DNA from: a virus
DNA: 64,000 nt
Reading direction: 5' to 3' (one strand)
IMG/VR virus record: IMGVR_UViG_3300030060_004796
Location: 44,731-108,730 of that record
The position numbers and the translations under genes are program-made. Within the stretch, counting starts at the first letter, position 1; the number at the start of each line of letters is the position of its first letter. The notes beneath the pieces were generated by a model that saw only the letters and a program-made list of their open reading frames with translations, did no database searches and was not told the DNA's origin. Below, one piece after another: positions 3,001 through 59,859 of this stretch.

Positions 3001-6000
3001 GGAAATAATCTATTAGTGGATTTTGAAATGGAAGACATTTTAAATAATCCAAAAGAGTATAGTGAAGCATTAGTAGTTAATGCTATGAGAAGAAGAATAG
3101 ATGGAAGTAGTCCTATTAGTAGTGGTAGTGCTGAATCTAGAACAGCAGAAAATCTAGCAGAAATTAAACAAGATATACAACAAGGAGAACAGTTTAATAA
3201 AACTTTTAGTAATGAGAATGCTGCTGGTAGATATAGAGCTGGTGAAGGTTATGTAGCATTTCAAGGAAAATATAGAACTGGTCAAATAGGATTGCGAAGA
3301 TTGGCATATGAATCACTTATTGATTTAGGAATTCTTGAAGGTATTGACAATCTAACAGAAACTGAAATAACAGATGAACTATGGGCAGAGTTAATGGAGC
3401 AAGAGTTTAAGAATCTTCCTGAAGGTATCTTAATGCCTATAAGAAGAAAGATTGCAAACTCTACACCACTTACACCAAGAGAAAGATTAATTATTGACGC
3501 ATTAGAAAGTCAAGGTAAAAATATACTTGATGGAATAACTTCTGAAGAAGCTGCCACTCAAAAGAATGAAGATAATTTACAAGCAGAGTCAGGTAATCAA
3601 AATATATTAGATCAAATATCTAAAAAAAGAAATGAAATAGCTCAAGCTAAAGATAAAGTAGAAAGAGAACTTACAGCTCAAATACAAAAAGCAAATCCAG
3701 AAATGTCTAAACCAGAAGTAGAAATTCAGGTTAATGAGATGATGGAGCAAGATGATGAGATTAAAAAGTTAAATACTGAATTAGCAAAATTACAATCTAA
3801 ATTAGGGTATAAAATATTACCAGAATTTGATGGGAATGATGTTGAAAATATTGACAATTTTATAGACTGGGTTAAAAATAATTTACCAGAAGCTATTATG
3901 GTTGGTGATATTGATGATTTAGGTAGAAGATTAAAAGCTAATGGTGTAACTATTGGTGCGTTTGTTATGGAACTATCTAAGGTTTCTGGAGGAATAAAAG
4001 ATCTTGTAGGTAAAGTATATGTAGGAAAACAATCTCCATTTAGATACCATGAGGCATTTCACGGTGTATTTAGAATGTTACTTACTGATGCTGAAATTAA
4101 AAAATATCTTGGTGTAGCTAAGAATGATGTACGTAAAAAAATGCAAAGCTCTAAAGGTTATGAAATACTACCTGGAGTGTTTGTTAAAAATATGAATCAA
4201 GCTAGAATAACTCTAAGAGGTCTAGCAAAGTCATATGCTTTAATGGACAATGCAACATTAGATGAAAGAATTTATGAAGAATATCTAGCTGATGAGTTTG
4301 AAAAATTCAAAACAAATCCAAGATCTTCTAAGGTAGGATCTGAAGTTAAAAGTTGGTTTACACGTTTATTAGAATGGATCAAAAATATTTTCTTAGGATA
4401 TAACTCTTCAGAATTAAATGACTTATTTACAAGTATAGATTCTGGAAAATATAGAGAAGCAGGTATTCAAGAAAATGTATTTACAAGAGAAGCTATGCAA
4501 GAAATTGCTGAAGGAGGTGTAGTTACTTCAACAGCTTTGAAAGCAATTAGAAAAGGAGATCCTATTGAGTCAGTAAGGCCTACTGTTAGAAACGGGGTAG
4601 TAATTCCTGATGGAAGAACAATCTATATAAATAATTATTTTACAGCTAAAGAGACAAATGGAATAGTTGCAGAAATAGGAGCTATGTATCTCAATAGATT
4701 AGATACTCTTGCTGATGATCCTAATTTTACAGGAGAATACAATCCTTCAGCAATACTTGACCAAACAATAGATGAGTATATAGAAAGGTATAATTTTGCT
4801 AGAGCAACGGAAACTTCTGACGGAACTAAAAATTATTACTATGCTGGCAAAATAAATAGACAGACTAGAGAAAAATTAAATGAAAGATATAAGTCATTAA
4901 AGCAATATAAATCTGATGTTAAAGATTCTGTTACAGAATATCTAGAATTGTTTGATGAAGATGTTACATCTGAATTAGAAGTTTTAGAAAAAATTGATAT
5001 GGATTCTGGAGGTCAAGTTAAGACAACAGAACAATATGAAAAAGATGCAAATGAAATAGGAGGATGGAAATCATTAAGTAAAGGTGTACGTAAATTTCTT
5101 GCAACTACAACTAAAGAAGTGAAAGATGAGTTTACTGGAGAAATAGTTTCTGTTCCAGTTGATTATATTACAGCATACAATGCGTTAATGAAATCTTTAT
5201 CAGGTATGACTAATATACATAGTATGCTTGTTAAGTTAAAATTATTCTCAGAATCAAGTGAAGATGCAAGAGCAGTTATAGATGCAATCTTTACTAAAGC
5301 TAATCTTTCTAATATTACACTAGAGGATTTTATAAATGGAAATTATAAGCTTGATCAAGTAACTAATGAAGTTTTCTTCCAAGGTATTATAAAAGCATTT
5401 TCACAATTTAGAACGGATTATTATTATTTAGAAACAGATGTAGAAAAAGGACTTGTAAATATATTTAAAGCAAATCATAGAGATGATGCTCATACTCAAA
5501 CTGATAAATGGCAAGGAAATTATACAAGTAAATTAGAGAATTTAAATACAAATCCTAATGCTCTTAGTGCTGCACAAGATCCTTGGGGTAGTATTGTATT
5601 TAATTCTAATAAAGAATCAATTAAAGAAGAAGAGTTAAATACAACATCAAAAAGAATTCAAAGACAAATAGAAAATAGTATAGGTTTTAATCTTAGTTGG
5701 ATGACTGTTAAATATATGATTCTATCAAACGGTATTCAAAATAAAACAGATGCTCAAGCAAAATTCTTAAATACATTTAAAAGTGAGATAGAATTTAATT
5801 TAGATGATGTTTCTCAAATTCAAACAGCTATTTCAAATCATGGACTTACAAAAGATAACCGTCAAACTGGAAACTTATTTTATGATATGAATGAAGTTTC
5901 TGTTGAGGAAGAAGAAAATGAAGTTAATGCAGAAGGAACAGATGTAAAATCTAGAATTAAAAAGCTAGCAAAATTAAATGCAATTTTTGATGACACAGTA

Positions 6001-44560: not shown

Positions 44561-44949
44561 GCTAATTCTAAATTTATTTTTTTAATAAATCCTTTTTTAC
44601 CTTCAGTAATAGTATCCAAATAAAGATTAGCTATTTCATATTCTATTATTTGTTTATCTATTTCAGTGGATTTTTTCTTTACATCCTTAAATAATTCCAT
44701 CCAAGGTTTACAGTTATCTGATAATGTCATTAATCTTAAATTTACTTTATCTGCATCATCAAACTCAGATTCTGCCACTAAACGCAAGAAGTTAGTTCTT
44801 CTATGTCCATTTAAAGATTTAGCTAATGCTATTATCCCTACCTCAGTAATATTTGTATTCATTATATTGGAAACACCTATTGCTAAGTCATCTGCTGATC
44901 CTAATAATTTTTTATTTTTTAAATAAAATTTTAATGTTAATTCAATCAT
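44554..44949 (-). CDS. Hypothetical protein before VWA gene
   Basis: A 131-residue mostly helical protein (MIELTLKFYLKNKKLLGSADD...; NGHRRTNFLRLVAESEFDDADKVNLRL). It overlaps the VWA gene by seven bases and the upstream DUF6915-like gene by eight, so it is an integral part of the cassette. No family is recognised. A regulatory or adaptor part in the MoxR/VWA system is possible from position. Confidence 0.6.
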   Translation of the reverse strand: MIELTLKFYLKNKKLLGSADDLAIGVSNIMNTNITEVGIIALAKSLNGHRRTNFLRLVAESEFDDADKVNLRLMTLSDNCKPWMELFKDVKKKSTEIDKQIIEYEIANLYLDTITEGKKGFIKKINLELAW

Positions 44950-54062: not shown

Positions 54063-54325
54063 TAATTTCTTTTTATTGATAAACCTAATTCTATTGCTTC
54101 TTCAGGATGTGTCTCTATCCAATCATGACATGATCTACACACAGATAACCATGTTGACATATCATTATGGTATTCACCACGTCCTTTTTTATGATGTACT
54201 TCAGATGACCTTAATGCACAGCCAGGTATACTGGCCATACAATTAGGTTTATCTGTAAGGAAAACTTTTCTAAGTTTAGAATATTCTCTATTCTTCTTAG
54301 ACATTTTCTTTGATTCTCTTTTCAT
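54062..54325 (-). CDS. HNH endonuclease
   Basis: An 87-residue protein with two zinc-binding Cys pairs and an HNH core: CMASIPGCALRSSEVHHKKGRG near residue 29 and STWLSVCRSCHDWIETHPEEA near 58. HHKKGRG supplies the catalytic His. Free-standing HNH proteins can be nicking enzymes in replication or packaging, or homing endonucleases; the position in a replication unit favours the first. It overlaps the next gene by four bases. Confidence 0.75.
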   Translation of the reverse strand: MKRESKKMSKKNREYSKLRKVFLTDKPNCMASIPGCALRSSEVHHKKGRGEYHNDMSTWLSVCRSCHDWIETHPEEAIELGLSIKRN

Positions 54326-57448: not shown

Positions 57449-57494
57449 AATATTTCTTATTTATTAATATTCTGTTGTCGTAATACTTGTCTTG

Positions 57495-57568
57495 TACACC
57501 CAGTAGGACTTGAACCTACAACCTACAGCTTAGAAGGCTGTTGCTCTATCCAGTTGAGCTATGAGTGT
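57495..57568 (-). tRNA. tRNA-Arg (anticodon UCU)
   Basis: Minus-strand cloverleaf: acceptor ACACTCA pairs with TGGGTGT (7 bp, one G-U), D-stem GCTC/GAGC, anticodon stem ACAGC/GCTGT with loop CTTCTAA, so anticodon TCT, and T-arm GTAGG TTCAAGT CCTAC. Position 57495 is the discriminator base; CCA is not encoded. It reads AGA, the arginine codon that dominates this genome, so it likely supports phage translation. Confidence 0.9.
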
Positions 57569-58640: not shown

Positions 58641-58790
58641 TTAATAGTTGTAAGTGATTTGAATGTCCATAAATGGAAGTAGGATTATTAGACCTAGATC
58701 ACGATGTGATTTCTGGTAACCAAATCCAATACCAACGAATGGTATAAAGTTTATGCTAAAGTCTAAGTTAGCTTTGAATTTTTTGTTCAT
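58641..58790 (-). CDS. Small hypothetical protein
   Basis: A 49-residue protein starting MNKKFKANLDFSINFIPFVG at 58790; an upstream in-frame ATG at 58844 would extend it into the structured RNA region, so the shorter start is preferred. Hydrophobic strands (GLIILLPFMDIQITYNY) suggest a beta-hairpin or membrane peptide. It is the last of a run of small genes. Confidence 0.45.
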   Translation of the reverse strand: MNKKFKANLDFSINFIPFVGIGFGYQKSHRDLGLIILLPFMDIQITYNY

Positions 58791-58827: not shown

Positions 58828-58936
58828 AAACTTATGCAATCCAAGGTATCCCTTCTTGCCTGATCAACGACTGGTTTTTGTTTGGCACTTAGTGTTTAGG
58901 ACTTTGCCCACCCAAACCTAACCATGGCATAAGTTT
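58828..58936 (-). ncRNA. Candidate structured RNA domain 1
   Basis: AAACTTATGC (58828-58837) and GCATAAGTTT (58927-58936) form a perfect 10-bp closing stem around ~89 bases. Inside are further pairings, such as TTAGG/CCTAA and a CAAGG/CCTTCTTG hairpin. No protein gene fits this interval. Strand is assigned by the direction of the neighbouring unit. Function unknown. Confidence 0.35.
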
Positions 58937-58938
58937 AC

Positions 58939-59007
58939 TATAACTAGTGAGGACTCGAACCTCATACTCTTGTTTCATAGTAGCACCTCATTACCTAGCT
59001 TAGTTTA
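58939..59007 (-). other. tRNA-like element (degenerate)
   Basis: On the minus strand a perfect T-arm, TGAGG TTCGAGT CCTCA, and an acceptor-like TAAACTA / TAGTT(A)TA with one bulge flank a too-short middle with only partial D- and anticodon-like arms. No canonical anticodon loop can be drawn. It may be a decayed tRNA or a tRNA mimic. Confidence 0.35.
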
Positions 59008-59150
59008 AAATTAATTAGGGGTCTGCATAGTCCTTTCATTTGGTCCAGAACTATGTCAGTATTATTACGACCATACCATCTACAAATGTAGTAGGAATTA
59101 TCTCTTACCTATTATAATGGCTTTACAGTATCTCCAACCTAATTAGTTTT
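59007..59150 (-). ncRNA. Candidate structured RNA domain 2
   Basis: AAAATTAATTAGG (59007-59019) pairs with CCTAATTAGTTTT (59138-59150), 13 bp with one G-U. Inside, CATAGT/ACTATG and CTACA/TGTAG form two nested hairpins. The order closing stem, hairpin, hairpin is that of a folded RNA. It abuts the tRNA-like element. Function unknown. Confidence 0.35.
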
Positions 59151-59356: not shown

Positions 59357-59560
59357 TTTATTATACCAGTATTATCCACTGGATTTTTTTAATGTTGCGG
59401 TTAATAATACTCTCATCCTATAGAGAGAGAACATAATAACTATACATAAGAGTATGTCAAGGAGATCATATTATAGGTAGACTATTGCATTTCTACTCAT
59501 CCTATGTTCATTACTCTCATGATAGCTATATTATATATTACTGTCAATAACAGTTGTCAA

Positions 59561-59590
59561 TGTGGTAACAAGTGGTAATTTGTGGTAAAT
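59561..59590 (+). repeat. Three 10-bp iterons (GTGGTAA)
   Basis: TGTGGTAACA, AGTGGTAATT and TGTGGTAAAT follow one another at exact 10-base spacing, one helical turn, with an inverted ACCACA at 59594-59599 and a further TGTGGTTA at 59657. Such phased repeats usually bind an initiator or regulator. Confidence 0.6.
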
Positions 59591-59702
59591 AAGACCACAC
59601 TCTCACAACTTAACACACACAATTAAATATTTTTTTAACTAATTAAATAATTTTTATGTGGTTACACACCTGGATGTGGATGTAACCTTGGATGTAACTC
59701 AC

Positions 59703-59783
59703 CTGTGAATACATTTGTCTAGTAGATGAGCACACATCCAATTAAGTTGGTGCTGATTCTATACTGTCAGTATGTATTCACAG
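59703..59783. repeat. Long inverted repeat with nested hairpins
   Basis: CTGTGAATACAT (59703-59714) and ATGTATTCACAG (59772-59783) match perfectly over 12 bp around 57 bases. Inside lie AGCA-CCAA / TTGG-TGCT and the palindrome ATACTGTCAGTAT (59761-59773). Possible origin cruciform or RNA structure. Confidence 0.55.
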
Positions 59784-59859
59784 TTTGAGTGAGTTTGTTT
59801 ATGCACTAATCTGTCATAGTACATAGAGGATTCAGGGATATTAATCCCCTTGTATTGGG

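Follow-up and report, generated by a model that had tools for sequence, protein, structure and literature searches.

A noncoding stretch of about 320 bases (323 nt, positions 58828 to 59150 of the window) separates two small genes in the genome of a crAss-like phage and is predicted to fold into three RNA structures arranged end to end. We consider it reasonably probable that this stretch is an accessory, exchangeable structured-RNA cassette, read from the minus strand, cotranscribed with its neighbors, processed at its domain borders, and acting in trans. Synteny among related phages is the best support for this reading. The window, meaning the whole 64,000-nt stretch of DNA analyzed, comprises positions 44731 to 108730 of the 120,198-base IMG/VR virus record IMGVR_UViG_3300030060_004796. 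The source phage is crAss-like by its protein sequences. Its portal protein matched phrog_6547 and was 24 to 32% identical to proteins of uncultured crAss-type, Cellulophaga, and Leptolyngbya phages, and a 5,193-aa ORF of the genome contains DFDID, a motif known from the RNA polymerases of crAss-like phages. A search of GTDB genomes for a neighboring gene of the RNA stretch returned none. The features of the locus are as follows.

59357 to 59859, minus strand: leader or promoter region upstream of the 68-aa gene, partly conserved in the related phage records L002, L010, L030, and L031
59150 to 59356, minus strand: 68-aa gene with a TTG start, directly upstream of the RNA stretch, its stop codon abutting domain A
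59007 to 59150, minus strand: domain A, 144 nt, closed by AAAACTAATTAGG/CCTAATTAATTTT (arms 59138 to 59150 and 59007 to 59019)
58937 to 59006, minus strand: domain B, tRNA-like, 70 nt, with a T-arm and an acceptor-like stem
58828 to 58936, minus strand: domain C, 109 nt, closed by a perfect 10-bp stem (58927 to 58936 with 58828 to 58837)
58641 to 58790, minus strand: 49-aa gene (MNKKFKANLDFSINFIPF...), directly downstream of the RNA stretch
57494 to 57568, minus strand: tRNA-Arg (TCT), downstream of the RNA stretch on the same strand, given for context only

An earlier reading made from the letters alone (the sequence-only reading) had described three abutting folds without a protein gene. All three were recovered where that reading had placed them, end to end, and no ORF of at least 30 aa lies wholly inside the stretch. 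Its translations had no significant similarity to neighboring ORFs, and the only resemblance to relatives lay in L002 and its duplicates, where the downstream gene region begins. On the minus strand, the order is the 68-aa gene, domain A (59150 to 59007), domain B (59006 to 58937), domain C (58936 to 58828), and the leader of the 49-aa gene, and the domain borders of the block coincide with gene borders. Minus is likely the sense strand because the T-arm, the tRNA-Arg, and the two genes on either side share this orientation. The stretch is one of only four internal gaps of at least 150 nt in the 120-kb genome, all of them located at 57.4 to 60.4 kb of the window, and its GC content (0.38) is the highest of the four (genome, 0.316).

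Domain C conformed to its earlier description: a perfect 10-bp stem, AAACTTATGC/GCATAAGTTT, closes the 109 bases from 58828 to 58936. This stem is the outer helix of the minimum-free-energy (MFE) fold of the minus strand (-29.0 kcal/mol), within which the helices UGGUU/AACCA, GUUUGG/CCAAAC, GGGC/GUCC, and AAGG/CCUU are predicted; 1% of random 110-nt segments of the phage genome fold as well. The 13-bp stem said to close the 144 bases of domain A depends on the strand. Thirteen pairs form on the plus strand, one of them a G.U, but on the minus strand the helix consists of 8 bp, a C.A mismatch, and 4 bp (12 of 13 positions paired). Both inner hairpins claimed for this domain are present, at about 59070 to 59129 and 59023 to 59059.

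The middle element had been called tRNA-like with a perfect T-arm, and it kept those parts but failed as a tRNA. Its T-arm is a perfect 5-bp stem with a TTCRANN loop (TGAGG-TTCGAGT-CCTCA, 58948 to 58964, minus strand). The motif GGTTCRANTCC occurs twice in the window versus 0.17 copies expected, the other copy belonging to the real tRNA-Arg. A 6-bp acceptor-like stem, AGCTAG/CTAGTT (58995 to 59000 with 58942 to 58947), is extended by ACTA/TAGT. Domain B thus shares a perfect T-arm and an acceptor-like stem with tRNA (RF00005) but differs from it in score and in the anticodon arm. As a candidate tRNA, it was rejected with 11.5 bits at 58941 to 59000 on the minus strand in a full-model alignment, against a gathering cutoff of 29 bits, and ARAGORN, for which tRNA-Arg was the only tRNA in the window, was negative for domain B. 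An anticodon arm with a 5-bp stem and a 7-nt loop was absent from domain B, the best candidate being TACT/AGTA with a 10-nt loop, and 30 nt separate the acceptor-like stem from the T-arm versus about 41 in a tRNA, a shortfall of about 11 nt.

Folding energy did not set the block apart. Relative to composition-matched shuffles, the minus-strand z-scores were -0.3 for the whole, -1.5 for domain C, -0.5 for domain B, and -1.4 for domain A, and the MFE of 58828 to 59150 was ordinary on either strand, so that energy would not single it out as a structured RNA. Perfect inverted repeats of at least 10 bp with arms 60 to 160 nt apart numbered 26 in the genome versus 22 to 39 in shuffles. A 13-bp inverted repeat at 54078 to 54253 was set aside, as it lies inside an 87-aa ORF and outside any gap. 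The arrangement of the domains was more telling: the observed score for two adjacent closed domains within 334 nt was reached in 5 of 2,000 shuffles (0.25%, p 0.0025). Two properties, the adjacent pair of closed domains and the perfect T-arm between them, are harder to ascribe to chance. The tests of the closing stems and of the T-arm were both post hoc, but the candidate places were few (the four gaps of at least 150 nt).

Looking for covariation, we found no relative that retains the sequence of 58828 to 59150, using three covariance models, a 16-mer scan of IMG/VR, and blastn. Searches with blastn gave only chance matches against phages and, against ten related records, only the sequence itself and matches of 14 to 20 bases. 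Single-sequence covariance models of domains C and A had no matches over 17 sources; over the same sources, the domain B model matched one tRNA-like element, located at 3330 to 3428 of L009 (19.2 bits, E 0.048). This weak element, which had also been detected at 17 bits, has an intact T-arm and an acceptor-like stem extending to 13 pairs including a G.U. The 16-mer scan with domain C led to 31 loci, none convincing for this domain (best, 18.9 bits, E 0.035), most of which share one recurring sequence context reading GWAKSY.

The flanking genes allowed the same slot to be followed in relatives. Homologs of the 68-aa gene are found in L003, L004, L005, L009, L010, and L011, and those of the 49-aa gene are found in L002, L004, and L030. 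L010, a 119.9-kb genome of the same gene order, keeps both flanking genes but lacks the RNA: a short leader and then a 117-aa ORF follow its 68-aa gene, and the C-terminal part of this ORF resembles, by eye, the 49-aa protein. L002 is without the 68-aa gene, and a structured spacer of about 165 nt (z, -1.9) precedes its 49-aa gene. In L030, a different ORF comes first, and a spacer of about 200 nt (z, -2.15) separates it from the 49-aa gene; a perfect 13-bp stem closes the first domain of this spacer. In a sister group, L004 and its close relative L011 differ by a clean noncoding insertion: about 600 nt, well folded (z, -2.7 to -3.7), stand immediately behind the 68-aa-gene homolog of L004 (6332 to 6945) and are absent from L011. 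The insertion terminates in a motif like twister-P1 (6884 to 6938, 37.2 bits, below the Rfam gathering score), which suggests that this RNA may make its own 3' end.

Two more structured RNAs lie several genes downstream of the 68-aa gene rather than adjoining it: a GOLLD RNA in L005 (2736 to 3134, 212.5 bits), about 1.8 kb downstream of the homolog, and a 600-nt noncoding stretch in L009 (1885 to 2480) that is predicted to fold very strongly (z, -4.5) and matches no Rfam family. Taken singly, few closing stems of the relatives' blocks reach significance (that of L030 and one helix in L005). Apart from a leader common to the window and L002, similarity among these blocks, or between them and the window, did not exceed that of shuffles. 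Because they align neither with the window RNA nor mutually, a common function would be an analogy only. At the level of gene order, the slot is shown to be exchangeable, holding other, predicted structured RNAs or nothing in relatives. Since this part of the genome holds other structured RNAs in some relatives and no such RNA in others, the window RNA is probably an accessory RNA that is gained and lost. The earlier proposal of a multidomain noncoding RNA thereby gains indirect support, from the lack of a protein gene, the match of domain borders to gene borders, and the presence, absence, or replacement by other structured blocks in relatives.

The partly conserved region of about 500 nt upstream of the 68-aa gene (59357 to 59859) is likely the start of the transcript. 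At 59703 to 59783 on its minus strand lies a 12-bp stem, CTGTGAATACAT/ATGTATTCACAG, and in L002, L010, and L030 the corresponding place has this stem as its longest inverted repeat. Its letters are altered and its pairing is kept in L010 (TATGAATACATA) and L030 (TTGAATGCATAG/CTATGCATTCAG); it is weaker in L031 and is followed by GTTACATCC or a similar sequence. This stem is likely a conserved structured element. The sequence CTCTCTATAGGA at 59417 to 59427 on the minus strand resembles a T7-type promoter core and precedes the operon; L002, L030, and L031 have it in the corresponding position, as does L010 with one letter changed. The sequence TCTCTNTATAGGA has a single occurrence in the genome.

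From this upstream region, the cassette would be cotranscribed with the 68-aa and 49-aa genes, and the transcript is predicted to fold into the three abutting domains. Host RNase P and RNase III would probably cleave this transcript where the domains meet: the acceptor/T-arm stack of domain B is of a type that RNase P and RNase Z recognize, and the long closing stems would suit RNase III. Such cleavage would correspond to the processed polycistronic RNA that the sequence-only reading had proposed as one possibility. The released RNAs would be stable and, more speculatively, might act in trans during infection, with host translation, the tRNA-sensing machinery, or a defense system as the most plausible targets. 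Weighing against this reading are the ordinary energy z-scores, the failure of the searches above to yield a homolog and hence covariation, the lack of alignment among the blocks of relatives, and the distance of several genes between the 68-aa gene and the RNAs of L005 and L009.

The block could instead be a cis-acting intergenic element, whose stems keep the 68-aa cistron apart from the 49-aa one and stabilize, process, or attenuate a polycistronic mRNA without any trans product. We regard this as unlikely. Its position exactly between two codirectional genes, with stems adjoining the stop codon and the next leader, fits such a role, as do the structured spacers that L002 and L030 have ahead of their 49-aa genes; however, 323 nt with a T-arm exceeds the needs of a spacer, and the blocks of relatives reach 600 to 1,000 nt. 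The occurrence of both genes without the RNA in L010 weakens the idea further.

Loss of function would leave a decaying remnant, that is, a degenerate tRNA (domain B) with fragments of a former larger RNA. The 11.5 bits of domain B as a tRNA, its roughly 11 missing nucleotides, the weak z-scores, and the other weak tRNA-like element of L009 are compatible with decay, but the closing stems and T-arm are intact and genomes this dense would usually shed dead DNA, so that we consider a remnant distinctly improbable. The ordinary MFE z-scores and the frequency of 10-bp inverted repeats in an AT-rich genome could also be taken to mean that the folds are chance features of unannotated sequence, or that the stretch is a decayed small protein gene like nearby ORFs of L010 and L030. 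We give this very little credence: the joint probability for the closing stems and the presence of the T-arm speak against chance, and the dissimilarity of the translations to neighboring ORFs speaks against a decayed gene.

If the preferred reading of an exchangeable, trans-acting cassette is extended to the relatives, some crAss-like phages might possess an RNA island close to where an operon starts, in which one structured-RNA cassette can take the place of another and the cassettes come and go in the manner of accessory antidefense genes. We offer this only tentatively; the cassettes would include GOLLD, the twister-ended RNA of about 600 nt, the 600-nt RNA of L009, and the three-domain RNA with its tRNA-like part. 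Such an island, if true, implies that phages have a rapidly evolving repertoire of RNAs acting in trans. GOLLD, ROOL, and similar large phage RNAs have elaborate structures without an explained function, and GOLLD is seen to form oligomers. Turnover of structured RNAs in one genome region among closely related phages would argue for an accessory role directed at the host. L004 and L011, and likewise the source phage and L010, form natural presence/absence pairs for testing function.

Among known families, an Rfam search of the window gave only tRNA-Arg above the gathering score, and permissive scans of the element gave only below-threshold, chance-level matches, with no ribozyme match. The twister-like motif that resembles the Twister-P1 ribozyme (RF03160) occupies a comparable slot in L004, whereas the window element has none. 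T4 stable RNAs C and D are small stable phage RNAs associated with tRNA genes; their likeness to the window RNA is by description and serves as a lead only. GOLLD is a phage-borne multidomain noncoding RNA, often near tRNAs and sometimes with tRNAs inside a variable linker region, and ROOL is a large structured phage or prophage RNA near tRNA islands (PMC12286853). GOLLD itself was rejected for the source genome, the whole 120-kb record having no RF02032 match at E <= 1, against 212.5 bits in L005. The window RNA is likewise phage-borne, multidomain, and noncoding, and a true GOLLD exists in the related phage L005, but it measures 323 nt where many GOLLD members exceed 800 nt, and it has no above-shuffle similarity to the L005 RNA. 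It is also much shorter than ROOL and lacks an Rfam match. By analogy, the window RNA, a member of no family tested, would work most like GOLLD and ROOL or like the T4 stable RNAs.
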